From Gammaproteobacteria bacterium (GTDB lineage Bacteria; Pseudomonadota; Gammaproteobacteria; Pseudomonadales; Halieaceae), in assembly GCA_024742415.1 (NCBI GenBank), contig JANSYN010000004.1, forward strand, positions 248,001 through 312,000: a stretch of 64,000 bases of DNA, written 5' to 3'. The position numbers were made by a program, and so were the translations under genes. The number at the start of each line of letters is the position of its first letter. The stretch's first letter is position 1. Shown piece after piece: positions 21,014 to 35,997 of this stretch. The notes below the pieces were generated by a model, which had not been told where the DNA came from, did no database searches, and saw only the letters and a program-made list of their open reading frames with translations.

Positions 21014-21925
21014 CTAGGGTTGTAGTGTGTTCTGCCCGGTAGCAGGCTCAGGGTCGGCATCAGCGGTGCGCTGTGCGGCTGCGGGTTGCAGTGCGCCGGA
21101 GGCTGCCGCTGGTGCGGAGGGCGTCGCTTCGGCCTGAGGCTCGCTGGGATCGGCCTTTGCGGCTTCCAGCTCGGCCTGGGCGTCCAGGTAGGCCTTGATT
21201 TTTTGAAGTTCCTCGGCACTGGGCTTCCATTTTCCAGCGGCGACCAGCTTGTTTTTCAGGCCTGGCAGGGTCAACCCGGCGTCATAAAGCGTGCGGGCCA
21301 TTGTCATTGCCTCATCATAGCGCTTCATTTTCACCAGTAGCAGCGCCGTGTTGTAGTGGAGCATGGCGTCGTTTGGGTAAAGCTGCAGTGCTTTGAGATT
21401 GGCTTCCAGCGCCTCGGGGAAGCGCCCCTTTTTGTGCATGTAATAGCCGTAGAGCCGGTAGGGTACGCCGTCCCTCGGGTTGTAGTTCATCGCGCGCTGC
21501 AGATAGCACTCCGCCGGTACACCGTGTTCATCTGCCGGCCACTTCTTGAACCGCATGCTGTACTGCACCGACGTATTCAGGGCGCGATGGTGGTTGGGGA
21601 AAGAGCGCAGCACAAAGTCCAGATCATCCATCATGCGGCCGGTCTTGCCGGCGATGCCCTGTTCTACCTCGGGCGGAAAGTGGGCAGTTTCGATCATGTT
21701 GAGCTTGCCCATCATGGTGTGGCGCTGCAGGTAATCAAAGGGACCACCGCCGGGCGACGGCCGCGGATTCGCGCATTTCTTTCCATCGAGTTGCTTGCCT
21801 ACCCAGGGCGCGGGTGGATTGGCGGCGTTGGCCCCCAGCGGCGCTGAGACGCCGTACACAAGCCCGGCGATCAGTACCAGCGCCATGAGCGGCGTGAAGC
21901 GTGTTGGTGCGCTGTTGGTTTTCAT
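21014..21925 (-). CDS. secreted TPR-repeat protein
   Basis: 303 residues with a signal peptide (hydrophobic about 12-27, likely cut after ANA near 34). The mature part contains a cysteine pair (Cys51 and Cys138) and TPR-like helices around 140-230 (RLYGYYMHKKGRFPEALEAN, then a second unit). It ends in a Glu/Ala/Pro-rich disordered tail. Unknown function; probably a periplasmic scaffold. It overlaps the radical SAM gene upstream by 4 bp, so the two are co-expressed and may work together, although one is cytoplasmic. Confidence 0.78.
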   Translation of the reverse strand: MKTNSAPTRFTPLMALVLIAGLVYGVSAPLGANAANPPAPWVGKQLDGKKCANPRPSPGGGPFDYLQRHTMMGKLNMIETAHFPPEVEQGIAGKTGRMMDDLDFVLRSFPNHHRALNTSVQYSMRFKKWPADEHGVPAECYLQRAMNYNPRDGVPYRLYGYYMHKKGRFPEALEANLKALQLYPNDAMLHYNTALLLVKMKRYDEAMTMARTLYDAGLTLPGLKNKLVAAGKWKPSAEELQKIKAYLDAQAELEAAKADPSEPQAEATPSAPAAASGALQPAAAQRTADADPEPATGQNTLQP

Positions 21926-23307
21926 GGGTGTATGCGGCCTTCATGCATCGCGGCATATTCCTGTTCAAAAAAGAACTGTTCCTGGCCAAACGCGGGTTTC
22001 AGATCGTCCAGCCAATAGGCCTGCTCGTCATAGGCGGCGAAGAAGGGCCGGTGCGTCCATTCGGGATTGCGGGCCTGCAGAAAGCGTAACACGAACACTT
22101 TCTCACCATGAATTTCGGCAAAGCCCTGAATCTCGACTTTACCCGGACCTGCTGACATCACCGGGCCCCTGGCGGTGCGCCCGATACCCGAGACCTGTCG
22201 AATAGCGTCCCGGTAGATTTCGAAGACGCGCACCAGCGGCACCTCGAAGTACTGGCTGGCTCCGGTGTCGCGTTCGATAAACATATAGTAGGGAATGATG
22301 CCGCAGTTAACCTGCTGCTTCCAGGTGCGCGCCCAGTCATCAGCGTTGTCATTGATGTGGGCCAGCAGCGGTGCCTGGCTGCGAATCTCTACGCCAGCGC
22401 GTCGCACCCGCTCTATAGCGGCGCGAGCAATGTCTGTTTCCATCTCGCGCCAGTGGTTGAAGTGCGCCATCAAGGCGACGTGTTTCCCGGCACGAATCAG
22501 TCTTGTGAACAGGCTGATCAATTCAGCGGCGTCGTCGTCGCTGACAAAACGCTGCGGCCAGAAGGTCAGTGCCTTTGTGCCGATGCGGATGGTACGAATG
22601 TGGTCATACTCCGGCGCTGTGAGCGGGTCAAGATAGGCGGCAAGGTGCTTGGTTTTCATCACCATCGGGTCACCACCGGTCACCAGCAGATCTGACACCT
22701 CAGTGTGCCGGGCAAGATAGCCGTGCATCGCCGCCGCTTCAGTGCTGGCCATGCGCAGGTCTTTATCGCCTACAAACTGGGCCCAGCGAAAGCAGAACGT
22801 GCAGTAGCTGTGGCAGGTCTGGCCCTGGCCGGGGAAGAACAAAACGGTTTCGCGATACTTGTGCTGCAGACCGTTGAGCTTTGTGCCGGACAGTTCGTCC
22901 AGCGGGATATTCAGCTCCATCTGGCCGGCAGGGTGGGGGTTCAGCTGAGCGCGTAACGATTTCGCCAGTGCGTGTATTTCGGCGCTGGCCGCGCCCGACT
23001 TCAGTAGCGCAGCCATTTGCTCATACATCGGGGCAGGCAGCATGGCTTTTTGCGGAAACGTCAGCTGGTACAGGGGATCTTCCGGTACTTTCGTCCAGTC
23101 GATCAGTTCCTCAATGACATAGCGATTGACCCGGAATGGCAAAATGGAAGACACCACCAGCATCTCGAAGCGTGTGTCATCTGATAGCGCCTGCAGTTGC
23201 TCAATGCGCTGCAAGTCTTTCTGGGTGTAAACCTTAAACCTGTGGCGTTCGTCGACCGCGATGACGTCGTCGAGAAAGTTATCTTCAACTGTAGTTATTC
23301 GGTTCAT
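21922..23307 (-). CDS. KamA-family radical SAM aminomutase-like protein
   Basis: 461 residues. The iron-sulfur motif C-x3-C-x2-C is at Cys165, Cys169 and Cys172 (CHSYCTFC), as in lysine 2,3-aminomutases. MAHFNHWREME and NDNADD match conserved stretches, and a PLP lysine is likely in AGPGKVEI. By eye, the two aspartates that bind the side-chain amino group of lysine (Asp293 and Asp330 in the clostridial enzyme) are not conserved; a basic residue replaces the first. The substrate may therefore be another amino acid. Minus strand, coupled to the TPR gene; no strong ribosome binding site. Confidence 0.85.
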   Translation of the reverse strand: MNRITTVEDNFLDDVIAVDERHRFKVYTQKDLQRIEQLQALSDDTRFEMLVVSSILPFRVNRYVIEELIDWTKVPEDPLYQLTFPQKAMLPAPMYEQMAALLKSGAASAEIHALAKSLRAQLNPHPAGQMELNIPLDELSGTKLNGLQHKYRETVLFFPGQGQTCHSYCTFCFRWAQFVGDKDLRMASTEAAAMHGYLARHTEVSDLLVTGGDPMVMKTKHLAAYLDPLTAPEYDHIRTIRIGTKALTFWPQRFVSDDDAAELISLFTRLIRAGKHVALMAHFNHWREMETDIARAAIERVRRAGVEIRSQAPLLAHINDNADDWARTWKQQVNCGIIPYYMFIERDTGASQYFEVPLVRVFEIYRDAIRQVSGIGRTARGPVMSAGPGKVEIQGFAEIHGEKVFVLRFLQARNPEWTHRPFFAAYDEQAYWLDDLKPAFGQEQFFFEQEYAAMHEGRIHP

Positions 23308-23838
23308 AGTCTAGGTTTGCTGGTACTCAATGGCACGGTAGTGCCGGTTAGGCAAATTCTGCCTGTTGCCCGGGCAGGCAGGACGCGCGCTGTACAACCT
23401 CCGCATGACACGCCGTGCAGGATTACCGGCGGGCGGGTGGGTAGGTGGTGTGTAACGGCTATGCATGAAAGACCACGTTTAATGACTGACTGTTAATGGC
23501 TTACAGTTCACGATTGACTATGCGTTGTCCAAACCAGCGTGCCGGAAGCCGGACGCTGGCTCTTCATCCCGGTAAATCGTCGTTCAAGCATAAATTACTG
23601 CAGGTTACTGTGCCAGTCGTACAGCGGGCTTTTTCCAGTATGAGACTTGGCGCACAAATCGGAAGATCTGTTATTTTAGGGGTTATTTCACGCCCCAAAG
23701 CCCGATGTTCGGGGTATTCAACCGCACCATACTGCAATAATATGCGCCCTGCGCCCGTGCGATTGAAGACGCCTTTTGCGGGTTGCACGGCTGCGACAAG
23801 CCGGCTTGACCGTGATCATTTGACAAGGGGATTTCGCC
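23308..23838. promoter_or_regulatory. divergent intergenic region between radical SAM gene and ACP
   Basis: A 531-bp stretch without a supportable gene. Near the radical SAM start it holds tight dyads (GGCAC/GTGCC at 23332-23345 and CTGCCTG/CAGGCAG at 23359-23381). The part next to the ACP gene is more A/T-rich, as expected for promoters, but I cannot assign a clear -35/-10 pair. AAGGGGA lies before the ACP ATG. Confidence 0.5.
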
Positions 23839-24084
23839 ATGAGTGCATTGGATGTGGCCATCAGGATACTCGCTTCGAACCTGCAGATAGACCGCGAGGA
23901 ACTGGATGCCGACACCGAGATACTCGGGAACTTTCCGGAGTTCAACTCATTGACCATTGTCGGCATTGTCAGTGCCATCGAGGAGGAACTGGACTGCGTT
24001 ATCGAAGATGACGAAATCAATACCGAGATATTTGCCACGGTGGAAGACCTGGCAGACTTTATCCAGTCCAAGTCTGAAGACTAG
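23839..24084 (+). CDS. acyl carrier protein, exosortase-associated (copy 1)
   Basis: 81 residues, very acidic. FNSLTI places the phosphopantetheine serine at Ser37, where ordinary ACPs have DSL. AAGGGGA lies 9 nt before the ATG. It is followed by the AMP-forming ligase and hydrolase 2, a trio that recurs in XrtA loci. The carrier probably holds an acyl or aminoacyl group loaded by the ligase, for transfer to the polysaccharide or a protein. A second ACP is at 34058-34312. Confidence 0.9.
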   Translation: MSALDVAIRILASNLQIDREELDADTEILGNFPEFNSLTIVGIVSAIEEELDCVIEDDEINTEIFATVEDLADFIQSKSED

Positions 24085-24198
24085 CCATTGCCATTGTATG
24101 GCCTGCAAGGTGTCCTTTGGGCGCGGCAGGCCACCTTGCCCAGGCCGTGCTGCCTTTGATAGCCAGTGTGAACCGGACGCTCCCTAGTTGAGATAAGT

Positions 24199-25800
24199 AT
24201 GTTGAACCAGAAAATACGCTTGTTACATGAACTGGTGGCGCACCGCGCCCTGTCCCATCCTGACGCTTTGGCCCTGCTGCACAAGGACGACACGCTCACA
24301 TTTTCACAGTTGCAATCCCGGGTGGAGTCTGTGGCAAGCGGGCTTGTGGCCCTTGGGCTGAATCCCGATGACCGTGTGGCAATCTACCTTCCCAAGCAGT
24401 TTGAAACCGTGATTGGTTTCTTCGCGGCGGCGGCAGCGGGCGGTGTGTCAGTGCCGGTAAATCCCATGCTGAAGCCGCAGCAGGTTGGCCACATCCTGCG
24501 CGACTGTAATGTGCGTGTGCTGATCACCTCGGCGCAGCGCCTCAAGCAACTGGAGAGTGTGATCCAGGGCTGCCCTGATCTTGAAGCGATCATTCTTACT
24601 ACTGAACGCAAGCCTGATGCGCCAGAACTGGCCACACGGCTACTGGGTTGGGACGATGTACAGGGTGACGGCTCTGCGGCGTGTCATGAGCGCATTGATG
24701 TCGATATGGCAGCCATACTCTATACATCGGGCAGTACCGGGTCGCCAAAGGGGGTTGTACTGTCTCACGCCAATATGGTTGCCGCTGCTGAGAGCAGTGC
24801 AGAGTTTTTGCGGTTGTCGCAGGCAGATCGCCTGCTCGCCGTACTGCCCCTGAGTTTTGACTATGGCTTGAGTCAACTCACCACCGCCTATTTTGTAGGC
24901 GCCTCTGTGGTGTTGATGGACTTCCTGTTGGCCAAAGAGGTGGTTGCCGCGGTGGCCAGGTATTCGATCACCGGAATCTCTGCAGTACCCCCTATATGGA
25001 ACCAACTCGCGATACTGGATTGGCCTCCCGAGGCCGTCGCCAGCATGCGCTACCTGACCACCTCGGGCGGTGCCGCGCAGCGCTCTACCTTGTTGCGACT
25101 CAAAGAGGCGTTGCCATCGACGGGAATTTACCAGATGTATGGTTTGACAGAGGCGTTTCGTTCATCTTACTTGCCGCCGGAGGAGTTCGATCGACGCCCG
25201 GGCAGCGTGGGCAAGGCATTGCCGAACGTAGAGTTAATGGTGGTCAGGCCGGACGGGTCCCGCTGTGATCCGGATGAACCCGGCGAGTTGGTGCACCGGG
25301 GTTCGCTGGTGGCCATGGGCTACTGGAATGACCCGCAGCGCACTGCGCAGCGTTTTCGTGAGGCCCCCGGACAGCCCCAGGGGATTCCTCTGCGTGAGAT
25401 GGCAGTATGGTCTGGCGACCAGATGCGTATGGATGCCGAGGGTTACCTGTACTTTGAAAGCCGGCAGGATGAAATGATCAAGACCTCCGGTTATCGCGTC
25501 AGCCCAACAGAAGTGGAGGAGGTCGTCTTCGCGTCCGGCCTGGTGACTGAAGCAGTGGCCGTTGGTGTCACGCACCCCGAGCTGGGGCAGGCCATTGTGC
25601 TGCTGGTAGAGACAGGCGCTGATGCCGACGTTGAGGTGGCGGCCATACTGAAGTACTGCCAGAAAGAACTGCCCAGTTTTATGGTGCCCGCCCATATCGA
25701 GATAGCGGCGGACTTGCCCAGAAACCCCAACGGCAAGATAGATCGCCCCAACCTGCGGGCGCGTTACTCGGACTTTTTTACCCGAGAATCCTCGCAGTAG
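24199..25800 (+). CDS. AMP-forming acyl ligase, exosortase A system-associated
   Basis: 533 residues of the ANL superfamily. P-loop ILYTSGSTGSPKG at about 173-185, core QMYGLTEAFRSSYLPP, then the C-terminal hinge FESRQDEMIKTSGYRVSPTE and catalytic lysine in NPNGKIDR. It adenylates a carboxylate and passes it to a thiol, very likely the ACP encoded 114 bp upstream. The sequence resembles both acyl-CoA ligases and amino-acid adenylation domains, so the substrate cannot be read from it. Start by GAGATAAG before the ATG. Confidence 0.92.
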   Translation: MLNQKIRLLHELVAHRALSHPDALALLHKDDTLTFSQLQSRVESVASGLVALGLNPDDRVAIYLPKQFETVIGFFAAAAAGGVSVPVNPMLKPQQVGHILRDCNVRVLITSAQRLKQLESVIQGCPDLEAIILTTERKPDAPELATRLLGWDDVQGDGSAACHERIDVDMAAILYTSGSTGSPKGVVLSHANMVAAAESSAEFLRLSQADRLLAVLPLSFDYGLSQLTTAYFVGASVVLMDFLLAKEVVAAVARYSITGISAVPPIWNQLAILDWPPEAVASMRYLTTSGGAAQRSTLLRLKEALPSTGIYQMYGLTEAFRSSYLPPEEFDRRPGSVGKALPNVELMVVRPDGSRCDPDEPGELVHRGSLVAMGYWNDPQRTAQRFREAPGQPQGIPLREMAVWSGDQMRMDAEGYLYFESRQDEMIKTSGYRVSPTEVEEVVFASGLVTEAVAVGVTHPELGQAIVLLVETGADADVEVAAILKYCQKELPSFMVPAHIEIAADLPRNPNGKIDRPNLRARYSDFFTRESSQ

Positions 25801-25882
25801 CACGCGCCAGTATGCAGGGGCCAGTGGTATCAAATAACGGGCGTGGCGTCTGCGCGTCGCTGTCCATTCAGGGAGTTGCCTT

Positions 25883-26713
25883 ATGACAGCAACAGATGTG
25901 ACACTCCAGCCGCGTTTTTTGGGCGGTGAAGGCAGTCGGCATTTTACCCTGACCTTCGAATCGCATGGCGCAGCCCGCGGACATATTGTGTTTTTGCCGC
26001 CCTTTGCCGAGGAGATGAATCGTTGCAGGGCGCTGGTGGCGCAGCAGGCCCGCGCATTTTGTGCGCTTGGGTACCACTGCACCCTGATTGACTTCTTCGG
26101 CACCGGTGACAGCGAAGGCGAACTTGCCGATGCCCGCCTTGCGCACTGGCAGCAGAACATCGACACGACTATCGATACAATTACCTCACAGTCGGCTTTG
26201 CCGGTGACACTGTGGGGGCTGCGCACGGGCGCCTTGATTGCGGCCGACTACGCATCGCGAACCGCGCGTGATATCCAGCACATACTGATGTGGCAGCCGG
26301 TCACTTCAGGCAAACGCTATGTGGTGCAACTGCTGCGCCAGCGCGTTGCGTCGCTGGCCAACAGTGGCCTGCCGGCAGAGACAACCGCACAAATTCGCCA
26401 GCGCCTGGGTGATGGTCAAACCGTGGAGGTATCGGGCTATGTTCTGGGCGGGGGCATCGTTGCGGATCTGGAATCCCTGACGCTTTCAGACACCACACCG
26501 CGCTGTGCGGGCAGCGTGTTCTGGCTGGAGCATGCGGACAGCGAAGGTGAGCCCCTGTCGGCCGGTGCCCAAAAAGCGGTCGATAAACTCGCGCAGGGCA
26601 GCACCGAGGTGCAGGTCCACACCTTCAGCGGTGCCCCGGTGTGGCAATTGCACAAGCGCGACCACGCCCCACGCCTGCTGGAGATCTCCACCGGTTTGTT
26701 CAGCCGCGACTAG
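25883..26713 (+). CDS. exosortase A system-associated hydrolase 2 (copy 1)
   Basis: 276 residues, alpha/beta-hydrolase fold. FLPPFAEEMNRCR (37-49) and GTGDSEGE (73-80) are family signatures. At the nucleophile elbow the sequence is WGLRTGA, with Arg114 where Ser, Cys or Asp is expected, so classical hydrolysis is doubtful. Follows the ligase after 82 bp and probably acts on the ACP-bound group. The paralogue at 34316 has the same arginine. Confidence 0.88.
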   Translation: MTATDVTLQPRFLGGEGSRHFTLTFESHGAARGHIVFLPPFAEEMNRCRALVAQQARAFCALGYHCTLIDFFGTGDSEGELADARLAHWQQNIDTTIDTITSQSALPVTLWGLRTGALIAADYASRTARDIQHILMWQPVTSGKRYVVQLLRQRVASLANSGLPAETTAQIRQRLGDGQTVEVSGYVLGGGIVADLESLTLSDTTPRCAGSVFWLEHADSEGEPLSAGAQKAVDKLAQGSTEVQVHTFSGAPVWQLHKRDHAPRLLEISTGLFSRD

Positions 26714-26732
26714 GGTCTCGCCCCGGTGGCCC

Positions 26733-27548
26733 TCAGGCGGTGTACTGTCCGTGCTCGCAGGCGTTGATCATTGTTTGCCTGACGCGGGTGTAAACCAGTT
26801 CCGCTTCCTCGACCAGGCCATGACTGATAGCGACAGTTTTGGTGTCATCCGCAATGCTGGTGGTGATTTGGCCGCTGCCCAGGCGTTCTGAGGTGTCACC
26901 GACACGTTCCTGTGAGGTCTTTTTCTGGATGTCATAGTCTGGACTGAGCGCAGGTGTCAAATCCAGCCACTGGGTCAGTGCTGCAAGTGTGTCTTGCGAA
27001 TCCGATACCAAAGCCTGCGCGTCCATGTAAAAGAAGCCGCTGCGCATCGACTGGGCCATGCGTTCAAGGGTGTTCAGCCGGCCGATGTAGTAGTCGGTTG
27101 CGTAGCGCGCGTCATTGAATTCATGGGAAGGGTCAACGTTCTCATAGAGCCGCAGGATGCTGGGTATGGTCTTGCCCGGTGGGCGCAGAGCGAATATGAC
27201 CTGTGAACGTGGATGATCCAGCATCTCGGTGCTGATGGCATGATCGTTGTGCAGTATCTTGTCAAACATGTACCTGAACTTTGCCTTGGGCTGTTCATCA
27301 CGAAAATACAGCAGCTTTTGTCGTACAAAGCTACGCCAGCTGTAGTAGCCCATATGCATCTCGTAGTAACCACAAATGGCCGGGTGGGAACCCATAATGT
27401 GGCCAAACAGGCTGGAGTAGGCACGCATATGACTGAGCATGAGAATGTGCTCGTGTCGTGAAAGTAATGTGTTGAATCGCCGCAGCTGTGCAACAAGGCT
27501 CATCGGGCCCGCTGCCTGCTCAGTGCTCTGTGACGGGGAAGGGCTCAC
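26733..27548 (-). CDS. sulfotransferase-like protein
   Basis: 271 residues. The N-terminal HILMLSHMRAYSSLFGHIMG resembles the PAPS-binding 5'-phosphosulfate loop, followed by a GYYEMHMGYYSW stretch; RSQVIFALRPPGKTIPSIL resembles the 3'-phosphate site. It would move sulfate from PAPS to a sugar hydroxyl. The GTG at 27548 lies 7 bp after the GT2 gene stop; Met16 (27503) is an alternative. Convergent with hydrolase 2, 19 bp apart. Confidence 0.72.
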   Translation of the reverse strand: MSPSPSQSTEQAAGPMSLVAQLRRFNTLLSRHEHILMLSHMRAYSSLFGHIMGSHPAICGYYEMHMGYYSWRSFVRQKLLYFRDEQPKAKFRYMFDKILHNDHAISTEMLDHPRSQVIFALRPPGKTIPSILRLYENVDPSHEFNDARYATDYYIGRLNTLERMAQSMRSGFFYMDAQALVSDSQDTLAALTQWLDLTPALSPDYDIQKKTSQERVGDTSERLGSGQITTSIADDTKTVAISHGLVEEAELVYTRVRQTMINACEHGQYTA

Positions 27549-27555
27549 TCGACGC

Positions 27556-28536
27556 TCAGCTCAACAGTGACTTGGTACAGATATACACGGTATAACCAAG
27601 CCAGCGCGGGTTGAAACCGTTGAGCAAAGCCTCGCGTGCATAGTGCGCGGCCCGGGTGTAGTCGCCCCTGGCGGCAAGAATCTGCGTGAGGTGTTTCAGT
27701 TCATAGACTTTACCCTTGCGACAGTGTGCCAGAACCGCCGGCTGGGTCGAGTTTGATATGCCTTTGTCATAAACGCGTATCTGGAACAGTTTTTTGTCCG
27801 TATCGGAGGCGACCGTCGACATGTTTTCCTTCTTGGCGCTGTCCGGAATGTTGTGCCGTGACACATAGTGCGTGCTGAACAATATGGTCCCGGCGCCGTC
27901 GACCGAGCGAATAAACACATCGCGATCGTTCTCGTAGCGAATGCTTTCGTCCATGCCCTGGATGTCGAGGTAAAACTCGCGCCGGAAAATACTGCAGTTC
28001 AGGTGCCCAAAACCACCGCTGCGCATCATGAATTCAGCGTCAACGACGAAGGTGTCGTTTTCATTGGCAGGAAACTCTGCCGTCTGGGGTATGAGGTCTT
28101 CCAGCCATACCAGGTCAGTTTGCGCGGTGCCGTCCGCAAAAAACGCTTTCTGGTTGCTGTAATGCATATCGACAGCCTGCGCACAGGATGTGATGCTGCG
28201 GTGGGCGCGCTCAAGGTAGTGGTTGTCTGTCCATGAGTCGTCATCATCGAGGAAGCACAGGTACTGGCCGCTTGAGGCGCGCACCCCGCAGTTCATCGAG
28301 TAGCTCTGGCCATGGCCGTTGGGTTGGTGAACGAGGTACTGAAAGTTCGATCGCGTGTAGCGAGTTTCCAGTTCATGGTATGCCACCAGATGCTCATCGC
28401 TGGAGCCATCCACGACTACAACCACTTCAATCGCGTCAAAGGATTGATCCAGAACCGAGCGCAGCGCACGTTCAAACAGCATTGGGCGGTTGCGCGTTGA
28501 GATAATCACGGAGAAAAAAGGTGCGGCTGGCGTCAC
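27556..28536 (-). CDS. GT2-family glycosyltransferase
   Basis: 326 residues, GT-A fold. FSVIISTRNRPMLFERAL begins the nucleotide-binding domain; VVVVDGSSD and the metal site in FLDDDDSW are clear, and MNCGVRASSGQYLCFLDD is typical. The C-terminal 60 residues are helical, with an alpha-hairpin repeat (LAHCRKGKVYELKHLTQIL). It likely adds a sugar to the polymer or a decoration. GTG start at 28536 with CAGGG upstream. In an operon with the sulfotransferase, suggesting a sulfated side-branch. Confidence 0.87.
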   Translation of the reverse strand: MTPAAPFFSVIISTRNRPMLFERALRSVLDQSFDAIEVVVVVDGSSDEHLVAYHELETRYTRSNFQYLVHQPNGHGQSYSMNCGVRASSGQYLCFLDDDDSWTDNHYLERAHRSITSCAQAVDMHYSNQKAFFADGTAQTDLVWLEDLIPQTAEFPANENDTFVVDAEFMMRSGGFGHLNCSIFRREFYLDIQGMDESIRYENDRDVFIRSVDGAGTILFSTHYVSRHNIPDSAKKENMSTVASDTDKKLFQIRVYDKGISNSTQPAVLAHCRKGKVYELKHLTQILAARGDYTRAAHYAREALLNGFNPRWLGYTVYICTKSLLS

Positions 28537-28947
28537 TGCAAAAGGCCCTGTAGAACGGTAGGTGTCATACGTCTGCGACCTGCATCAAACCTGTGCCTTA
28601 TTATTGGGCGGGACGCGCATACCGGCTATCTTAGGAACCCGCTGGATGCGGGTCAACTTGCTGCCAAAGATATGTGAACTGGTTTTCCCCAAAGCGGTCA
28701 CAGTTGTCATCAATGGCTTGATCGCGCTCACAAAAATGGCAGAATCTGCGCCATCTTGAGTGCTTCCCAGTCCATATCCACCTAATATGGCTCTGGAATT
28801 CTCCGACCGCGTCCTGGAAATGATCACTACGCCCGTGTTTGACCTTGCTGCTATCGCCTGTGCTGGCGAAAACGTCGAAGCGATGCTGCGCAGTGTGCGG
28901 GCGCCTATGCCCGAGCCGTGCGACGCCACCAGGACCGCCACCGAACA
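28537..28947. other. divergent intergenic region, no supported gene
   Basis: A 411-bp stretch between the minus-strand GT2 gene and the plus-strand ATP-grasp gene. It contains a perfect 6-bp hairpin at 28637-28653 (ACCCGC/GCGGGT, 5-nt loop) with no T-run. A 63-residue ORF at 28760-28951 ends in an ATGA overlap with the next gene but has no ribosome binding site or recognisable features. The divergent promoters must lie here. Confidence 0.45.
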
Positions 28948-30693
28948 ATGACAACGTTAGCGGGACGCAAAGTACTGGTGCTTGATGCAGACATGGTGCC
29001 TGCCCTGACCATTACGCGGTCGTTGGCTGCGCAGTCCTGTGTCGTTGATGTTGCCAGCCATGTTGCTGCCCCTATAGCTGGTCGTTCACGCAGGGCATCT
29101 CGCAAGTTCTGCTATCCAAGCCCCCTGGCTTCACCAGCCAAGTTTGTCGATTGGCTGTGTCACCACCTGGCCGCAGAGCACTATGACCTGGTGATCCCCG
29201 TTACGGAGCGTACCCTGGTGCCTTTATCCAATGCCAGGCAGCGGCTGAGTGCCGCGAAGGTCGCGATGCCAGGGGAGCACAGCCTCACGCTGGTACTGGA
29301 TAAAGCCCAAACTATGACGCTCGCACAGGAACTGGGGGTTGCCATCCCGCGCAGCGTGACCGTAGCTTCGCTGGAGGAGTTGAATGACATCCAGGAGACG
29401 CTGCACTACCCCGTAGTCGTCAAGCCGGCACGCTCCATCGGTTCGAAAGACGGTGGCGCCAGCCACCTGCAGGTCAGTTATGCCTTCGATGCCGTCGGCC
29501 TGGTGGCGCGCTGTAAACATGCTCTGCGCTACGGCGCGGTAGTGCTGCAGGAATATTTTGGCGGTGACGGCGTCGGTGTAGAACTGATCGCTGACCAGGG
29601 TGCGATTCACTATGCATTTCAGCACCGCAGGTTGCATGAGGTACCGTTAACCGGAGGTGGCAGTAGTTTGCGCGTGAGCGAACCCCTGAACCCGCGATTA
29701 CTTGAGGCCTCGGCCGCCTTGATCGGCGCGCTGCAGTGGCACGGGGTTGCCATGGTTGAATTCAAACTGGACACACAAACCGGAGCGTTTTGCCTGATGG
29801 AAATCAACGGTCGCTTCTGGGGTTCCCTGCCTCTGGCGAACGCCGCCGGTGCTGATTTTCCCGCTATGCTGGCGCAGCTTGAGCTCAATGGGCGGATCGG
29901 CAGTTTTCCCGACTATCGCCCCGGCGTGTACTGTCGACTGCTGGCGCGTGACTTGTGGTGGTATGAATCGGTGCTCAGGGGAGAGGGCGACCCGCGCCTG
30001 GTAAAAATCCCGTCGACCGGTGAAGTGATCAGGGAACTGCGCTTGTTTCTTTCACCGCGCCACTATTTCGATGTGCAGAACTTTTCTGATCCGTTACCGG
30101 GTCTGTTTGACCTGATCGGCATTCTCGACAGTTACGCGGCCAGGTTGAAATCGCTGGCCAATGACTGGTTATTCAGGCGGCAGCAGAAGCGTGCCTGGCG
30201 CAATAATGTGGTAATGCGCGAAGTAGAAAGGGCACAGTCGATTCTGTTTTTATGTTACGGCAACATCAATCGCAGTGCCCTGGCCGATGCCATGATCAGG
30301 GCTTACGCCGAGGATTCGGGAGTTGCGATCTACTCGGCCGGTTTTCACGAGGAGTCAGCCAGGCCGGCTGACCCCATGATGGTGGAAATTGCCGCGCACA
30401 ACGGTGTCGATATGACCTGGCTGCGCTCTACGACGGTGACTGATGAGATGCTGCGCAAGAGCGATGTCATTTTCGTGATGGAAAAAGCCCACTATGACAG
30501 ATTGCTGGCCATGCGTCCGGATGTGGAAGGCCGGGTATTCCTACTCGGTGCCTATCCTTCAAGGGCGCCTCGACATGCAGAAATTGGTGATCCGTACGGG
30601 CAATCTCGACAAGCCTATGCACAGTGTTATGCCCGAATTGCCGAGTCTGCCGACCACATCAAGGCCATGTTGGCGATGCGCGTTGAGGGCTAG
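28948..30693 (+). CDS. ATP-grasp enzyme fused to a low-molecular-weight tyrosine phosphatase
   Basis: 581 residues. Residues 1-400 are a carboxylate-amine ligase of the ATP-grasp fold: VLVLDADMVPALTITRSLA at the start, the ATP-lysine in YPVVVKPARSIGSKDGG, and LMEINGRFWGSLPLA carrying metal-binding Glu and Asn. From about residue 430 a complete low-molecular-weight phosphatase follows, with the C-x5-R-S loop CYGNINRS (Cys436) and catalytic Asp in GDPYG near 548. Such phosphatases normally reset BY-kinases in polysaccharide export; the ligase half implies formation of an amide or similar bond. I start at the ATG at 28948; a GTG 30 bp upstream is possible. Confidence 0.88.
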   Translation: MTTLAGRKVLVLDADMVPALTITRSLAAQSCVVDVASHVAAPIAGRSRRASRKFCYPSPLASPAKFVDWLCHHLAAEHYDLVIPVTERTLVPLSNARQRLSAAKVAMPGEHSLTLVLDKAQTMTLAQELGVAIPRSVTVASLEELNDIQETLHYPVVVKPARSIGSKDGGASHLQVSYAFDAVGLVARCKHALRYGAVVLQEYFGGDGVGVELIADQGAIHYAFQHRRLHEVPLTGGGSSLRVSEPLNPRLLEASAALIGALQWHGVAMVEFKLDTQTGAFCLMEINGRFWGSLPLANAAGADFPAMLAQLELNGRIGSFPDYRPGVYCRLLARDLWWYESVLRGEGDPRLVKIPSTGEVIRELRLFLSPRHYFDVQNFSDPLPGLFDLIGILDSYAARLKSLANDWLFRRQQKRAWRNNVVMREVERAQSILFLCYGNINRSALADAMIRAYAEDSGVAIYSAGFHEESARPADPMMVEIAAHNGVDMTWLRSTTVTDEMLRKSDVIFVMEKAHYDRLLAMRPDVEGRVFLLGAYPSRAPRHAEIGDPYGQSRQAYAQCYARIAESADHIKAMLAMRVEG

Positions 30694-30696
30694 CCT

Positions 30697-31014
30697 GTGA
30701 TTTTCTGGCTGGCGTCATTGGCTGCTGGGTCTTTGCAGTACTCTGTACAGGCAGCAACGCCGGCAACCTTATGGGCAACGGTACAGGCAACAATACAGGC
30801 AACAACACAGGCAACAATACAGGCAACAACACAGGCAACAACACAGGCAACAACACAGGTAACGACGCAGGCAACAGTACAGGAAACTGAACGGGTGAAA
30901 GTACAGGTCGTAACGACACGACGCAGCAACAGCGGGGCACACCGGCCGGCAGTTGGCAGCGCTTGCGCAGGGCTCTGCCGGGCACCCATCGAGGCACACC
31001 ACAATGAGCAGTGA
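30697..31014 (+). CDS. candidate small secreted Thr/Gln-rich repeat protein
   Basis: 105 residues, uncertain. GTG start with GAGGG 7 nt upstream and only 3 bp after the previous stop. The N-terminus (MIFWLASLAAGSLQYSVQA) reads like a signal peptide. A run of Gln-Ala-Thr-Thr/Ile tetrapeptides encoded by the 12-bp tandem array follows, then a basic tail with two cysteines. It overlaps the sulfotransferase gene by 11 bp, which is compatible with coupling. Against it, the repeat DNA is open in several frames and could simply be a spacer. No homologue is known to me. Confidence 0.35.
   Translation: MIFWLASLAAGSLQYSVQAATPATLWATVQATIQATTQATIQATTQATTQATTQVTTQATVQETERVKVQVVTTRRSNSGAHRPAVGSACAGLCRAPIEAHHNEQ
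30771..30887 (+). repeat. 12-bp tandem repeat array (minisatellite)
   Basis: About ten 12-bp units with consensus ACAGGCAACAAC. Six adjacent units (30783-30854) differ only at the last base (T or C); one divergent unit precedes them and three more degenerate ones follow. The unit length keeps every reading frame open: Gln-Ala-Thr-Thr in the 30697 frame, Thr-Gly-Asn-Asn in another, and Pro-Val-Leu-Leu on the minus strand. Copy number is probably variable between strains. Confidence 0.93.
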
Positions 31015-31789
31015 GCGCGCCCGTGGCCGACTTGTGATCGGCCTTGGTTCAGGTCGATCGGGTACGGCCTCACTGACAAGTTTGCTCAATCGCCAGCCTG
31101 GTGGGCTTTGTTTTCATGAACTCAACCCGGCCTGCGCGGTTTTTCAAGGTAATGCGCAAGCGCCGCTGAATACCGTGCGGGAATTTCGGCAAATTTTGCA
31201 AGGCGGTGACAAGTCCAGGCTGACTGTCGATTACTCGCGACCCGCGTCTGTGGAAACCTACCGCCAGCTGCAGTCGATGAGCGCGGTCAATCTCATCGGT
31301 GATATTGCATTTTACTACCTGAAATACGTGGATGACTTGCTGCTGGCCGACCCTGATTGTGTTTTTGTGTGTATCCGTCGTGAACGAGAGGAAACCGTAC
31401 AGAGCTGGCTGCAGAAGTCGTCTATCAAACGGTGGCCTTCTCTATGGTGGGGTGACCGCATACGCGCCTGGCTGACCAGAACACCTTTTTACACGGCGTA
31501 TAACTACTGGCAAGAGCACGATGGCTCGTACTGGAAAAAGGATCCGGTATGGGACAGCGCTTTTCCCAAGTTTCAGGCTGCGTCCAGGGAGCAGGCTATC
31601 GGAATGTACTGGGACACCTACTACGCCCAGGCCGAAACACTGCAGCAGCGCCACCCGCAGCACTTCCGCATCTTTGATATCTCAGCACTGAGTCATCCCC
31701 AGGGCCAGCGGGAGATCCTGGCGTTTATCGGGCTGGATGACAGCGCCATGGTTGTTGGGCAGGAAGCGCATCTGCACAAGTCTGCCTGA
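31004..31789 (+). CDS. sulfotransferase-like protein
   Basis: 261 residues. The start of the mature fold is VIGLGSGRSGTASLTSLL, a good PAPS 5'-phosphosulfate loop; VFVCIRREREETVQSWL resembles the 3'-phosphate-binding strand and helix. The middle is rich in Trp and Tyr. I choose the ATG at 31004 (GAGG 10 nt upstream) because earlier in-frame codons lack a ribosome binding site. Second sulfotransferase of the block. Its position after the ATP-grasp/phosphatase fusion suggests modification of the same polymer. Confidence 0.75.
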   Translation: MSSERARGRLVIGLGSGRSGTASLTSLLNRQPGGLCFHELNPACAVFQGNAQAPLNTVREFRQILQGGDKSRLTVDYSRPASVETYRQLQSMSAVNLIGDIAFYYLKYVDDLLLADPDCVFVCIRREREETVQSWLQKSSIKRWPSLWWGDRIRAWLTRTPFYTAYNYWQEHDGSYWKKDPVWDSAFPKFQAASREQAIGMYWDTYYAQAETLQQRHPQHFRIFDISALSHPQGQREILAFIGLDDSAMVVGQEAHLHKSA

Positions 31790-31892
31790 GGCGGTTAAAA
31801 TACGTTGCTTACCTGCCCGATTGCGGGTTGCGGTGTGAGGGCGTTGCAGTGCAAGCTCGAGTGGGGCATGGCAAGAGCATGAGGGCACAGAA

Positions 31893-32765
31893 TTGAAAGC
31901 AGTCGAAGTTCCACTGGTGTTTACCTGTGAGTCACAGTCACTTGTGGGTATCCTGCATCGCCCGGAGCAGCCGATCGATACCGCCATCGTGTGCGTGATA
32001 GCCGGTGGGCCTCAGTATCGTGCGGGCGTTGGCCGCAACATGGTGTCGATGGCGCGCGCGCTATCATCCAGAGGTGTCGCGGTTCTGCGCTTTGATCACC
32101 GCGGACTGGGCGATAGCGCCGGCGAATTTGCCGGCTTTGAGCACACGCGCGCCGATATCCAGGCCGCCGTCGACTGTCTGCGTGAGGCGCTTCCCGAGCT
32201 GAAAAATATTGTACTTTGGGGCGGGTGCGATGCTGCCTCAGGTTGCATGATGCATGGGCTGCACATCAATGGTGTTACCAGTATGGTTCTGGGTAACCCG
32301 TGGATCAGCACGCAGCAAACGCAGGCCGTGGTGCGTAAGCAGCACTACCTGGCACGACTGCGGCAAGCGTCTTTCTGGCGGAAGGTTGTCCGGTTTGAAT
32401 ATGACCTTGTGGCCTACCTGCACTCGGCGGTACGCAGCCTGGCAACGCGCCTGAAGCGCGTGGCGCAGCGGCCTGCGCCCGGCGCAGAAGCCGGTGGCGG
32501 CGCCGATCACTGGATGGCGCGTATGCAGGGCGGTTTGCGGGATTTTCCGGGCCCGGTGTTGTTTCTTATCAGCGGGCAAAGTGTGGTGAGCAAGGAGTTC
32601 GATGCGCTGCTGGCCCGTGATCGGGCCTGGTTTGATGCGTGCAACAAGCCGTTGAATCGCCGCATTGACTTGCCGCAGGCGGACCAAACCTTCTCCTCAG
32701 TCGATGCCAGACAACGGGTCAACGAGGCGCTGCTGGATTGGGCGACGCAGCTAAGTGCGGCGTGA
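31893..32765 (+). CDS. exosortase A system-associated hydrolase 1 (copy 1)
   Basis: 290 residues, alpha/beta-hydrolase fold. IAGGPQYRAG (36-45), FDHRGLGDSAGEF and LWGGCDAASG match the family; the nucleophile elbow has Cys112 in place of Ser. TTG start at 31893 is chosen because GAGGG lies 7 nt upstream and no ATG is nearby. Usually found with hydrolase 2; here its partner of the same module is about 5 kb away, separated by sulfotransferase and glycosyltransferase genes. Convergent with the GNAT gene, 7 bp apart. Confidence 0.88.
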   Translation: MKAVEVPLVFTCESQSLVGILHRPEQPIDTAIVCVIAGGPQYRAGVGRNMVSMARALSSRGVAVLRFDHRGLGDSAGEFAGFEHTRADIQAAVDCLREALPELKNIVLWGGCDAASGCMMHGLHINGVTSMVLGNPWISTQQTQAVVRKQHYLARLRQASFWRKVVRFEYDLVAYLHSAVRSLATRLKRVAQRPAPGAEAGGGADHWMARMQGGLRDFPGPVLFLISGQSVVSKEFDALLARDRAWFDACNKPLNRRIDLPQADQTFSSVDARQRVNEALLDWATQLSAA

Positions 32766-32772
32766 GGCGGGT

Positions 32773-33861
32773 TCATTCGCGTGTGCTGGACGTCGCTGGG
32801 CGATGTAAATACTTCAGCCCGCGTTTCACAGTATAAGCCAGCAGTGCGCCGACGCCGCGCGCGCTGGCCGGGTTGTACGCGGCGACGCCGCGCATTTCGC
32901 GTCTTTGCGACATCCAGTCTCGCTTGTACGTGTCATCACCTGACAGGTAATCAATGTTGCGGATCGCATCTTGGCTGATTACCTGCTGCATCATGTAGGC
33001 GGTGAGTACGGTCCCTGGAGACTGCTGTGCATAGTCTTCGTCATAGGCCAGCTTGTAGATATACGCCGTTGCGCCACTGACCAGCCATATCTGGCTGGCA
33101 ATGGGCAGGCCATCGTAGTGGGCAAGGCCCAGCCTCAGCCAGCCTTTTTCGGCGGCCAGGCGCACCAGGTTGGGAATGAAATCGGTAAAGGGTTCGTTGC
33201 GCTTCCAGCTCTTTGCGTAAATCTGCGTGTAGCTTTCGATGGCCTCATCCAGTGCATCCGTCGGCCTTATCAGCGCCAGGCTGCCCCTGCCGTCGCGCAG
33301 AAAGGCGCGCGTTTTGCGCGACACCGTATTCCTGACGCGAGAAGAGCGGGACGCGAGGTATCCGTCCCAATCGCCTTGCCTGAGCGAGTGCCGCCAGTTG
33401 CCAAAGCAGAAGTAGTGGTGGCAGCCGCGCCAGCCAGTGTCGGTCAGTGCGGCCTGCAACTCACCAAACAGGGCATTGGCGGGATCCATTGGCGCCAGCG
33501 TCAGGCGCGTGATGCCCGGCGTTTTGCGCAGGTGGCGCAGCAGTGCGCGCAACAGCAGCGCGCGGTCGGGTGTTGGGCCAACCGGTTGATAGAGCGAGGT
33601 GTAAAAGTTGGCCAGGGCACTGACGGCGCCGTCTTCTTCGTATAACAGCGGAAGAATGCACGGTCGGTGTGCCATGTCCCAGGCGACCAGCAAAACGGGC
33701 CTGGCGCCGGCCTGCGTGGCATGCTGAACAAGGTTTAACAGCCAGTCGAGACCGAGTTGCGGGTGTTCGGATTCCGCCTCAGCCAAACACTGCTGTACCT
33801 GCGCAGGTACGCTGTGCTGGTGTAAATCGATTGTTTCGACGCGAAAAGCGTGGTTGTCCAA
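32773..33861 (-). CDS. GNAT/FemAB-like acyltransferase
   Basis: 362 residues, double-GNAT architecture as in BioF2/CelD-type proteins. Visible stretches are SSRVRNTVSRKTRAFLRD, an internal GLAHYDGLPIASQIWLVSG strand pair, and IDYLSGDDTYKRDWMSQRRE near the end. Likely moves an acyl or aminoacyl group onto a sugar amine or hydroxyl. It differs from the exosortase-linked FemAB at 10396. Single gene facing away from the ACP2 module, so the 33862-34057 gap holds divergent promoters. Confidence 0.8.
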   Translation of the reverse strand: MDNHAFRVETIDLHQHSVPAQVQQCLAEAESEHPQLGLDWLLNLVQHATQAGARPVLLVAWDMAHRPCILPLLYEEDGAVSALANFYTSLYQPVGPTPDRALLLRALLRHLRKTPGITRLTLAPMDPANALFGELQAALTDTGWRGCHHYFCFGNWRHSLRQGDWDGYLASRSSRVRNTVSRKTRAFLRDGRGSLALIRPTDALDEAIESYTQIYAKSWKRNEPFTDFIPNLVRLAAEKGWLRLGLAHYDGLPIASQIWLVSGATAYIYKLAYDEDYAQQSPGTVLTAYMMQQVISQDAIRNIDYLSGDDTYKRDWMSQRREMRGVAAYNPASARGVGALLAYTVKRGLKYLHRPATSSTRE

Positions 33862-33960
33862 GGGAGTTACGCCCGCTGCTGGGTCTGCAAAACACTATCG
33901 GGGAATCACTGGTTATTGGCAATACCTTTCACAGACTGCTACGACAGTCACAAAACAATC

Positions 33961-33989
33961 TTGAGTGCTGGCATTGGCAGGGTTAGCAT
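33961..33989 (+). promoter_or_regulatory. candidate sigma70 promoter of the ACP2-hydrolase module
   Basis: -35 TTGAGT (33961-33966), 17-bp spacer, -10 TAGCAT (33984-33989). Each box matches 4 of 6 consensus positions. It lies about 70 bp before the ACP2 start, in the gap between divergent genes. Confidence 0.45.
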
Positions 33990-34057
33990 TGGGGATGGTA
34001 TTCCACACATGTGGTGCTGTCCGGCACTCTATCCACTGCAATCAGGGCGTAAAATCA

Positions 34058-34312
34058 TTGGAAACAGGTATTCAATCCGAAGTTGTTGAGATACTGCATT
34101 CCACTTTGGGCTTGCCGCCGGGTTCTATCAACCCGCACGCAGACACTCGCGTTCTGGGGGTGATTCCCGAAATGGATTCGATGTCCGTTGTGGGCATTCT
34201 AACGACGCTTGAGGAGCAATACGGTATCCGTGTCGATGATGACGAGGTCGACGCTGACGTTTTTGCCACCGTGGGCAGCCTGACCCGGTTCGTCGAGTCC
34301 AAGCTTGGCTAG
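34058..34312 (+). CDS. acyl carrier protein, exosortase-associated (copy 2)
   Basis: 84 residues, acidic C-terminal half. The phosphopantetheine site is Ser41 in MDSMSVVG. I start at the TTG at 34058 with AGGG 10 nt upstream, giving an N-terminus that lines up with ACP copy 1; the next ATG upstream (33995) would add unrelated sequence. It is followed after 3 bp by hydrolase 2 and then hydrolase 1, a compact three-gene module. No second ligase accompanies it, so the ligase at 24199 may load both carriers. Confidence 0.86.
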   Translation: METGIQSEVVEILHSTLGLPPGSINPHADTRVLGVIPEMDSMSVVGILTTLEEQYGIRVDDDEVDADVFATVGSLTRFVESKLG

Positions 34313-34315
34313 ATC

Positions 34316-35134
34316 ATGACGCCGCCTGCCCATCGCCTGTCTGCTGACTTCCTGCAGCACTCAGAGCGACAGATCTTTCATATCCTGTTGCAGCCAGAGC
34401 GCGGTGAGGCGCAGGGCGCCGTGCTGTTTCTGCACCCATTTGCTGAGGAAATGCACAAGGCGCGACGCACCGTTGCGGCCCAGGCGCGCCTGCTTGCCGC
34501 CCAGGGCTACTTGGTCATGCAAATAGATCTCAATGGCTGTGGTGACAGCGATGGCGAGTTTGTCGATGCACGTTGGGAAACCTGGCTGGAAGACGCGAAC
34601 GCTGCCCTGGACTACCTGCGCCAACACTGTGCAGGCCCGATCACGCTGTGGGGCCTTCGGCTGGGGGCCTTGCTGGCTTGCGAGCTGGAGCGCACACACA
34701 CTGACATTCAACGGCTTGTGCTCTGGCAGCCGGTACTCAATGGTGAGCAGCAGGTCGATCAGTTCCTGCGCCTGCGCGTGGCGGCGGCTGCAGTGGGCGA
34801 ACGCCCCAGCTTTGATCGCAAAACGCTGTGGAGTGAACTGCGTGAAGGCAAGACGCTTGAGGTAGCCGGCTATGAGCTGTCGGCTGAGTTGGCCATGGCC
34901 ATCTCGAAAAGCCGGCTACACGACCTGATACCGTCCTGTGAGGTATTGTGGATGGAAGTGACACCGGGCACTGGCCGTGAACTGGCTCTACCCTCGCGCA
35001 ATGTCACTGCCTATTGGGAGGATCACGGCGTACAGGTGCAGGCGTATGCGTTACCCGGTGAGGCGTTCTGGCGCAATCACGATGCCGCCATCAATCCCGA
35101 CTTGCTGCGCCTGACCCTGGATGGTCTGCGATGA
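34316..35134 (+). CDS. exosortase A system-associated hydrolase 2 (copy 2)
   Basis: 272 residues, paralogue of the protein at 25883. Shared signatures are FLHPFAEEMHKARR (38-51), GCGDSDGE and the elbow WGLRLGA, again with Arg115 at the nucleophile position. The same substitution in both copies means it is a family trait and not a chance mutation. Starts 3 bp after ACP2 and overlaps hydrolase 1 by 4 bp. The role in acyl transfer is unproven. Confidence 0.88.
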   Translation: MTPPAHRLSADFLQHSERQIFHILLQPERGEAQGAVLFLHPFAEEMHKARRTVAAQARLLAAQGYLVMQIDLNGCGDSDGEFVDARWETWLEDANAALDYLRQHCAGPITLWGLRLGALLACELERTHTDIQRLVLWQPVLNGEQQVDQFLRLRVAAAAVGERPSFDRKTLWSELREGKTLEVAGYELSAELAMAISKSRLHDLIPSCEVLWMEVTPGTGRELALPSRNVTAYWEDHGVQVQAYALPGEAFWRNHDAAINPDLLRLTLDGLR

Positions 35135-35997
35135 AGGGCGCTGGCTGGCGTGAGCGTGGTCTGGTTTTTGCCTGTGGCGGTCATCGCCTGGTAGGGGTGG
35201 CGACTCTCCCCGAGGCTCACGATGGCACTGCGGTACTGATACTGGTTGGCGGCCCGCAGTATCGCGTAGGCAGCCATCGCCAGTTCACTTTGCTGGCGCG
35301 CGACCTGGCGGAGCAGGCGATCCCTTCACTGCGTTTCGATTATTCCGGCATGGGCGATAGCGAGGGCGAGCAGCGCGAATTCAGCGACGTTGAGGAAGAC
35401 ATCGCCTGTGCTATCGATGCACTGATGGGCGAGGATCCAACGATCAAGCGTATCGTCTTGTGGGGGCTGTGCGATGCAGCATCGGCGGCCATGATGTATG
35501 CGCATCGCCATACGGCCATTTGCTCAATGGTGCTACTGAATCCCTGGGTGCATGGGGTGGAGTACTCGCCGCAAGTGAAGCTCTCACACTATTACCGTTC
35601 GCTGGCAACGGGATCCAGCGGATGGCGCCGCCTGTTATCTGGCAAGGTAAACGTTGCGGCCTCGATCAAGGAGTTCTTGCTCAGTTCAGTGCGTACCATC
35701 GCCGGTTCAGTCGGGCTACGCAGCGGCGCTGGCTCGCGCCACTCTTTTGTCGACCGGATGCTCAACGGGTTCAGTCAATATGACCGCAGCGCCCTGATCG
35801 TACTGAGTGAGAATGACCTCACCGCCAAAGAGTTTGCCACCCTGGCAGAGACTGATCGTGCGTGGCGTCGCCTACTTGCTCGTCCGGGCATCGAGTCACG
35901 GATGGTCGCAGACGCTGATCATACCTTTTCAGGCAAGCAGTGGCGTGGGGTGGTGTCAAGCATGACCTGTGAGTGGGTAAAAGGGGTGATTGAGTAA
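35131..35997 (+). CDS. exosortase A system-associated hydrolase 1 (copy 2)
   Basis: 288 residues, paralogue of the protein at 31893. LVGGPQYRVGSHRQ, FDYSGMGDSEGE and LWGLCDAASAAMM (Cys114 at the nucleophile elbow) are conserved. A late DADHTFS holds the expected catalytic histidine. Overlaps hydrolase 2 by ATGA. Together with ACP2 and hydrolase 2 it is the complete, compact copy of the module, while copy 1 is spread over 8 kb. Confidence 0.9.
   Translation: MKGAGWRERGLVFACGGHRLVGVATLPEAHDGTAVLILVGGPQYRVGSHRQFTLLARDLAEQAIPSLRFDYSGMGDSEGEQREFSDVEEDIACAIDALMGEDPTIKRIVLWGLCDAASAAMMYAHRHTAICSMVLLNPWVHGVEYSPQVKLSHYYRSLATGSSGWRRLLSGKVNVAASIKEFLLSSVRTIAGSVGLRSGAGSRHSFVDRMLNGFSQYDRSALIVLSENDLTAKEFATLAETDRAWRRLLARPGIESRMVADADHTFSGKQWRGVVSSMTCEWVKGVIE

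Follow-up and report, generated by a model that had tools for sequence, protein, structure and literature searches.

Two predicted aminoacyl-carrier-protein branches in an exosortase-A polysaccharide locus of a Halieaceae bacterium

We examined a 64,000-nucleotide stretch of a Halieaceae genome (assembly GCA_024742415.1, contig JANSYN010000004.1, positions 248,001 to 312,000 of the forward strand), here called the window and numbered from its first nucleotide, and within it a run of genes for acyl carrier proteins (ACPs), an AMP-forming ligase, a KamA-family aminomutase-like enzyme and α/β-hydrolase homologues. Profile scans of the window genes identify the setting as an exosortase-A (XrtA) polysaccharide locus: exosortase A, a FemAB-like XrtA protein and an O-glycosylation-ligase-like XrtA protein are all present, and many neighbours of the carrier-protein genes are glycan genes. 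Our analysis supports, with confidence that we would place at the midpoint, a model in which two parallel aminoacyl-ACP branches serve this locus and decorate its exopolysaccharide. The original prediction, made from this DNA alone, had named an aminomutase-like enzyme, two ACPs, a ligase, four hydrolases, a GNAT/FemAB-like transferase and an ATP-grasp enzyme; each was found in its place, with matches well above chance:

21922..23307, minus strand: KamA-family radical S-adenosylmethionine (SAM)/pyridoxal phosphate (PLP) 2,3-aminomutase-like enzyme of a distinct subfamily (TIGR00238; Arg346 at the site of Asp293 in lysine 2,3-aminomutase, LAM)
23839..24084, plus strand: ACP1 (PF00550, 5e-7; phosphopantetheine Ser37 in an FNSL motif)
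24199..25800, plus strand: ligase A, AMP-forming, of a variant clade without a decarboxylase partner (TIGR03098, 744 bits, cut-off 592)
25883..26713, plus strand: hydrolase 2 copy A (2A), Arg replacing the nucleophile (TIGR03101, 232 bits, cut-off 203)
28918..30693, plus strand: ATP-grasp domain and C-terminal Wzb-like low-molecular-weight tyrosine phosphatase in one fused protein
31893..32765, plus strand: hydrolase 1 copy A (1A), Cys nucleophile (TIGR03100, 254 bits, cut-off 168)
32773..33861, minus strand: GNAT/FemAB-like transferase, a candidate aminoacyltransferase (PF13480, 9e-29)
33965..34312 (start of the open reading frame; the true start is downstream and uncertain), plus strand: ACP2, phosphopantetheine Ser in an MDSM motif (PF00550, 2e-8)
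34316..35134, plus strand: hydrolase 2 copy B (2B), Arg115 replacing the nucleophile (TIGR03101, 257 bits, cut-off 203)
35131..35997, plus strand: hydrolase 1 copy B (1B), Cys114-Asp229-His264 (TIGR03100, 311 bits, cut-off 168)

These genes form two sets, one of which has its remaining members outside the window. The whole genome holds one match above cut-off to the PLP decarboxylase family TIGR03099, which lies about 32 kb ahead of the window on its contig, directly preceded by a second TIGR03098 ligase (ligase B, locus L004; 718 bits against the cut-off of 592) with 53% identity to ligase A; together ligase B and the decarboxylase lie 30–33 kb upstream of the window start. The only hydrolase-2 matches above cut-off in the genome are the two in the window, and an ACP family search of the genome found two ACPs beyond ACP1 and ACP2. 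By these genome counts, ligases, ACPs of this kind and hydrolase pairs each number two, against a single such decarboxylase. TIGR03098, TIGR03099, TIGR03100 and TIGR03101, which with an ACP form the XrtA-associated set, are NCBIfam "hypothetical equivalogs" whose names state no function, and all four exceed their curated cut-offs in this genome. The set is spread across environmental Proteobacteria and has been catalogued without a function; among the openly licensed papers that our searches listed, and in a word search of Haft 2006 (PMC1569441), we found no published function for it.

To define the usual arrangement, we compared TIGR03098 ligase loci from named genomes, taking the best 80 of 152 relatives with both ligases of this genome as queries, and counted decarboxylase linkage on 79 of them, as locus L097 has no room behind its ligase. 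A decarboxylase lies behind the ligase on the same strand in 71 of the 79, with a median gap between match edges of 27 bp, and in all 24 loci that hold the whole set the ACP gene is followed on its own strand by hydrolase 2 and then hydrolase 1. Ligase B has the decarboxylase behind it and set B keeps the ACP-hydrolase order. Set A differs from the usual set in that its ligase belongs to a separate clade and has KamA and ACP1 beside it but no decarboxylase, and its hydrolase 1A lies 5 kb from 2A; the presence of two sets in one genome is also unlike the usual case. No locus in the ligase sample holds the decarboxylase and KamA together. Neither the two parallel sets nor the decarboxylase as the usual partner had figured in the original prediction.

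The exchange of the decarboxylase for KamA follows the ligase phylogeny. In a quick tree, ligase A and its relatives form a clade of five from Halieaceae-type genomes (support of 99 in the Shimodaira–Hasegawa-like approximate likelihood ratio test, SH-aLRT), with a pair of Nitrosomonas ligases as sister and an SH-aLRT of 100 for the joint clade. None of the six members of this joint clade with room behind the ligase has a decarboxylase beside it, and the seventh (G171) ends 334 bp behind the ligase. Seventeen alignment columns distinguish set A from 72 decarboxylase-linked ligases, 12 of them within residues 196–312; these include Thr288 (Asn in 70/72), Ser261 (Ala in 68/72) and Gln312 (Leu in 71/72). 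In all five Halieaceae-type cases, this genome included, KamA is the divergently oriented neighbour of ACP1 and ligase A. Among 120 genomes sampled from the family, with ligase A called at an identity of at least 69% (the next best being at most 60%), KamA was present at the threshold used in 5/5 genomes with ligase A, 3/28 with only another ligase and 1/87 with no ligase. The six KamAs linked to ACP1 form one clade (support 100/99). As for the gene on the other side of KamA, an aminotransferase class I/II homologue follows it in four of the six KamA-ACP1 loci (L067, L068, L146 and L147), and a TPR protein takes that place in the window and in L066.

The Nitrosomonas ligases lack a decarboxylase and share six of the clade's distinguishing residues, with Ser at position 288, and we therefore examined both genomes for KamA. 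It is present in both, at 62–63% identity and unlinked to the ligase, and both also carry a canonical ligase-decarboxylase pair elsewhere. The genomes of L101, L110 and L138, which have no decarboxylase at the ligase locus, and of L097 gave only EpmB-level matches (27–30%).

KamA itself can be assigned at family level only, since its match to TIGR00238 (1e-40, 140 bits) lies below the cut-off of 199. The radical-SAM CxxxCxxC motif, the PLP lysine and Arg174 are kept in 22/22 orthologues, and Arg174 aligns with Arg134 of LAM, which we take to be the carboxylate ligand. At the site of LAM Asp293, which presumably holds the lysine side chain, Arg is found in 22/22 KamA orthologues, versus Asp in all 11 other KamA-family proteins from the same search; in glutamate 2,3-aminomutase, we assume, this position is basic. 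A positive charge opposite the side chain would suit glutamate as substrate, which makes β-glutamate the likely product and suggests that KamA converts glutamate to β-glutamate. With 85 bits against a cut-off of 650 for the glutamate 2,3-aminomutase profile TIGR04368, the protein may work like that enzyme but is not a member of the curated family. It likewise falls outside the LAM and EpmB families (113 bits against 525 and 104 against 369). With those enzymes it shares the KamA family, the radical-SAM cysteines and the PLP lysine; it differs in having Arg, not Asp, at the lysine-side-chain site. A role in β-lysylation of elongation factor P was rejected on account of this Arg and of a true EpmB encoded elsewhere in the genome.

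What the canonical set loads can be approached through the relatives of its enzymes. Compared with solved structures, the TIGR03099 decarboxylase matched two BtrK chains first (2e-83 and 4e-83), with diaminopimelate decarboxylases following from 5e-46; the genome's LysA, used as a control, matched diaminopimelate decarboxylases first (4e-155), with BtrK 16th among the 25 matches listed. The TIGR03099 protein is probably a BtrK-type decarboxylase, nearer to BtrK than to the diaminopimelate decarboxylases, and is predicted to act on an aminoacyl-ACP. For the ligases, multi-domain nonribosomal peptide synthetase chains came top when domains were summed, and the best single-domain protein was VinN (2e-52 for ligase B); a profile built from 18 ligases scored VinN at 265 bits versus 237 bits for FadD5. 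Asp221 in the A4 motif, Met313, Arg321, Ser322 and Lys513 are invariant in 83/83 ligases, and in the adenylation (A) domains of amino acids the A4-motif Asp is the ligand of the amino group. The next residue, expected to be bulky in a VinN-type β-aminoacyl-ACP synthetase, is Tyr in 5/5 set A ligases and in 51 of the 72 decarboxylase-linked ones, the other 21 of which have Ala. Compared with the second A domain of LgrA, the loop that bears Arg321 has two residues fewer; a review gives as a hallmark of VinN a β13–β14 loop one residue shorter that bears K330/R331 (PMC11253843). The register of the ligase loop and its residues against VinN is tentative. BtrK is described as decarboxylating glutamate attached to the carrier BtrI (BtrI-S-Glu; PMC7857480), and VinN as placing 3-methylaspartate on the ACP VinL, after which VinO decarboxylates it on the carrier (PMC11284099). 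With BtrK and VinN as the nearest relatives, the substrate loaded is probably an acidic amino acid rather than a fatty acid; most likely, the canonical set would load it via the side-chain carboxyl and then decarboxylate it on the carrier.

The original prediction had left open whether an amino, β-amino or fatty acid is adenylated and loaded onto the ACP. The amino-acid half of that claim draws support from the A4 Asp, VinN, BtrK and the KamA linkage, and the fatty-acid half is disfavoured. We regard it as very unlikely that the enzyme is a fatty-acyl-AMP ligase and that the GNAT enzyme moves an ACP-borne fatty acid to an amino acid or sugar. The family name and the nearby GNAT gene would fit, and the best NCBIfam profile after the ligase's own family describes long-chain fatty-acid CoA ligases (330 bits, versus 267 bits for the amino-acid adenylation domain); Craig in 2011 is said to have linked N-acyl amino acid synthases to PEP-CTERM loci. 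Against this stand the invariance of the A4 Asp, the rank of VinN among single-domain relatives and the usual partner of the ligase, a BtrK-like decarboxylase with no obvious part to play in loading a fatty acyl group.

Three known systems bear on such chemistry. The first is butirosin biosynthesis (BtrI/BtrJ/BtrK), in which BtrK, the top match of our decarboxylase among solved structures, decarboxylates an ACP-bound acidic amino acid. BtrJ is an ATP-grasp ligase, and butirosin differs from the present case in that the loader here is an A-domain-type ligase and in that its product goes to an aminoglycoside, not a polysaccharide. The ATP-grasp protein of the window is a weak candidate for a BtrJ-like loader; the nearest solved relative of its fused phosphatase domain is Wzb, and the protein looks more like export control and probably takes no part in loading. 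Through this pairing of ATP-grasp with a Wzb-like phosphatase, an amide ligase may be tied to the control of an export kinase. In vicenistatin biosynthesis (VinN/VinL/VinO), as described, a stand-alone A-domain enzyme loads a β-amino acid on an ACP, where a PLP enzyme decarboxylates it, and in the incednine pathway (IdnL4/IdnL1) the radical-SAM protein IdnL4 is described as a proposed glutamate 2,3-aminomutase feeding such loading, from gene disruption and with no in vitro activity seen (PMC11284099, PMC9230918). These pathways serve polyketide macrolactams, unlike the hydrolase pair and polysaccharide setting found here. D-Alanylation (DltA/DltC/DltB/DltD), to which the prediction had likened the locus, is a loose analogy: there too a small carrier receives its amino acid from an AMP-ligase and a cell-surface polymer is decorated, but the predicted substrate here is an acidic or β-amino acid, with an extra decarboxylase or aminomutase. 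Membership in the Dlt system was rejected, as ligase B scores 168 bits against the cut-off of 560 for the DltA profile TIGR01734 and the locus has no MBOAT protein; the genome's three MBOAT (DltB) genes all lie outside the window and outside the stretch that separates it from the decarboxylase. Closer analogues than Dlt are BtrI/BtrK and VinN/VinL/VinO.

Both hydrolases are noncanonical, as had been predicted: the nucleophile elbow holds Cys in both type-1 copies and Arg in both type-2 copies. In alignments, the nucleophile-Asp-His triad of hydrolase 1 has its Cys in 28/28 rows, its Asp in 26/28 and its His in 26/28, and in hydrolase 2 the nucleophile of an active hydrolase is replaced by Arg in 28/28. 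The ACPs keep the phosphopantetheine Ser in 35/35, with Asn in place of the usual Asp in the FNSL motif of ACP1. Structure models of 1B and 2B (mean predicted local distance difference test scores of 88 and 95) match esterases and lipases generally, and their comparison gave no pointer to a transferase; GrgF (6lzh) and DcsB (7d79) are in both match lists. A Cys acyl-enzyme (hydrolase 1) with an inactive partner (hydrolase 2) would make up the transfer step. The GNAT enzyme was rejected as a universal transferase, as only 5 of the 24 complete loci have it at a distance of 4 kb or less from the ACP-hydrolase set.

These results are consistent with the following scheme. Branch B would be the canonical XrtA set, made up of ligase B, the BtrK-like decarboxylase, ACP2 and hydrolases 2B and 1B: the ligase would adenylate the side-chain carboxyl of aspartate or glutamate and load it on ACP2, and the decarboxylase would strip the α-carboxyl from the bound residue to leave a β-alanyl or 4-aminobutyryl group. 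Branch A would comprise KamA, ACP1, ligase A and hydrolases 2A and 1A, without a decarboxylase; KamA would shift the amino group of glutamate to give β-glutamate, which ligase A would load on ACP1. In each branch, where we infer the pairing of ACP and ligase, hydrolase 1 would take the aminoacyl group from the ACP through its Cys-Asp-His triad and, aided by the non-catalytic hydrolase 2, pass it to an exopolysaccharide sugar, possibly a deacetylated amino sugar; the window also encodes two polysaccharide deacetylases, which could expose amines as acceptors. More tentatively, and with clearly less confidence than we have in two branches at this locus, we propose that XrtA bacteria move carrier-bound non-α amino acids (mostly β-alanyl or 4-aminobutyryl, β-glutamyl in the KamA variant) to exopolysaccharide by a two-subunit acyltransferase formed of a Cys hydrolase and its Arg partner, with the group set by the decarboxylase/aminomutase swap and a matched ligase.

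The acceptor is where clusters from Alphaproteobacteria are informative. An Aureimonas polysaccharide cluster carries the ligase-decarboxylase pair and an ACP with glycosyltransferases, a Wzz-type protein, an O-antigen translocase and an O-antigen ligase, and has no exosortase match in 17 kb. A Sinorhizobium meliloti cluster (CP050512, L187) combines glycosyltransferases and a polysaccharide deacetylase with the ligase and an ACP, and the 17–18 kb seen contain no exosortase match; behind its ligase, at 9651–10866, the match to the XrtA-type decarboxylase is divided between two reading frames. Together, the two clusters favour polysaccharide over a sorted protein as the acceptor. It is rather unlikely, in our view, that the same aminoacyl-ACP loading serves a sorted PEP-CTERM protein or a lipid, as might be supposed from the cataloguing of the set as XrtA/PEP-CTERM-associated and from the exosortase A, FemAB-like and O-glycosylation-ligase-like XrtA proteins of the window; the exosortase-free clusters and the many glycan genes around the set argue otherwise. 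The same clusters bear on whether the set makes a soluble small molecule, such as an amine-bearing natural product or signal, and merely shares a polysaccharide neighbourhood. BtrK and VinN, the nearest characterised relatives, do belong to antibiotic pathways, but the ligase, ACP and decarboxylase recur in polysaccharide clusters of two Alphaproteobacteria and the window genes scanned include no polyketide or peptide synthase, which leaves this explanation improbable.

Several observations weigh against exopolysaccharide decoration by two such branches, in addition to the fatty-acid CoA ligase profile noted above. The substrates are assigned from residues and relatives, and the transfer enzyme and acceptor by inference. 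Loci L101, L110 and L138 have neither the decarboxylase nor KamA beside the ligase, and among the 28 hydrolase-1 rows two lack the triad Asp and two the His. Neither hydrolase 1 nor hydrolase 2 was found in the Aureimonas and Sinorhizobium plasmid clusters; the pair is thus not needed everywhere, and other transferases must serve there. The co-occurrence of KamA with the Nitrosomonas ligases is weak on its own, as it concerns two related genomes against a background of 13/100 sampled members of the Nitrosomonas family with KamA (one of the two genomes among them); that one genome is the only one in this sample with ligase A by identity, and 12 of the 99 others have a KamA orthologue without it. 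At 18 orthologue loci from the wider order, some on short contigs, neither ACP1 nor a ligase was found near KamA. G233, one of the 3/28 genomes above, retains aminotransferase-KamA-ACP1 in an XrtA setting, with ligase A missing from that place. KamA orthologues without ligase A in many genomes imply that KamA has another role as well.

A close KamA orthologue occurs in 19/145 genomes sampled from the order, and outside this genus none was seen beside ACP1 or a ligase, so KamA probably served elsewhere before it was drawn into this locus. Near the unlinked KamAs (18 loci outside this genome) we found no partner gene common across families, and their neighbours are common only within one genus or family. 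In one family (L060, L061, L062 and L063), the genes next after KamA belong to a single cluster, and the member scanned, that of L061, encodes a RimK-like ATP-grasp protein, which suggests a ligated β-amino acid product unrelated to the exosortase. These distributions would suit a KamA that makes a compatible solute or has some other free-standing role, its place beside ACP1 and ligase A being without function. We think this unlikely, about as much so as a PEP-CTERM or lipid acceptor: KamA is the divergent neighbour in 5/5 ligase A genomes and is adjacent to ACP1 in G233 as well, the ACP1-linked KamAs are one clade, and members of the ligase A clade are without the usual neighbouring decarboxylase. 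In G233, the stretch beside KamA-ACP1 (L146, 11235–15750) also holds a second small ACP-like open reading frame (by eye) and an Antibiotic_NAT-family gene. A further protein there presumably deserves the name FkbH-like, its match by sequence being a HAD-hydrolase just below cut-off. This neighbourhood represents a different carrier chemistry in the same place.

If two aminoacyl-ACP branches do decorate exopolysaccharide, these biofilm polymers would bear zwitterions or primary amines, which an analysis of the sugars might overlook, and the two hydrolases would together form a transferase of a new kind. A concrete, testable role for the gene set emerges from its constant gene order, from the decarboxylase/aminomutase swap and from the relationship of its enzymes to BtrK and VinN. 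Its carrier-protein aminoacylation chemistry resembles known systems; the polysaccharide setting, the swap and the hydrolase pair are, to our knowledge, new.

Acyltransferase-like genes were also noticed next to some of the ligases. The same unannotated gene, acyltransferase-like by eye, adjoins the ligase in both alphaproteobacterial plasmids, and another acyltransferase-looking gene, without a Pfam match, stands beside the ligase in both Nitrosomonas loci (2 of the 80 loci). The two genes look alike by eye, and tblastn at 1e-5 does not join them.

Five further genes in or just past the interval were absent from the earlier gene list:

21014..21925, minus strand: TPR protein, signal peptide by eye, with a 4 bp overlap with the 3' end of the KamA gene
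26733..27548, minus strand: weak sulfotransferase-like protein (PF13469 just under cut-off)
27556..28536, minus strand: family 2 glycosyltransferase (GT2)
30953..31789, plus strand: second weak sulfotransferase-like protein, true start probably later
36058..37950, minus strand: asparagine-synthase-like amidotransferase, the second such gene, convergent with the ACP2 set

An asnB-like gene lies near the ACP-hydrolase set in 6 of the 24 complete loci, and the sulfotransferase-like gene at 26733–27548 recurs beside hydrolase 2 in L066. Beside XrtA glycosyltransferases at 43164–48668, the window encodes an HddC/GmhB-like fusion and an HddA-like kinase, both below their cut-offs, and a GmhA at cut-off; with these heptose-type genes, the polymer may contain heptose. 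At 899–3208, one 769-residue open reading frame joins an XrtA-system ATPase-like domain, just below cut-off, to an OmpA-like C-terminal domain.

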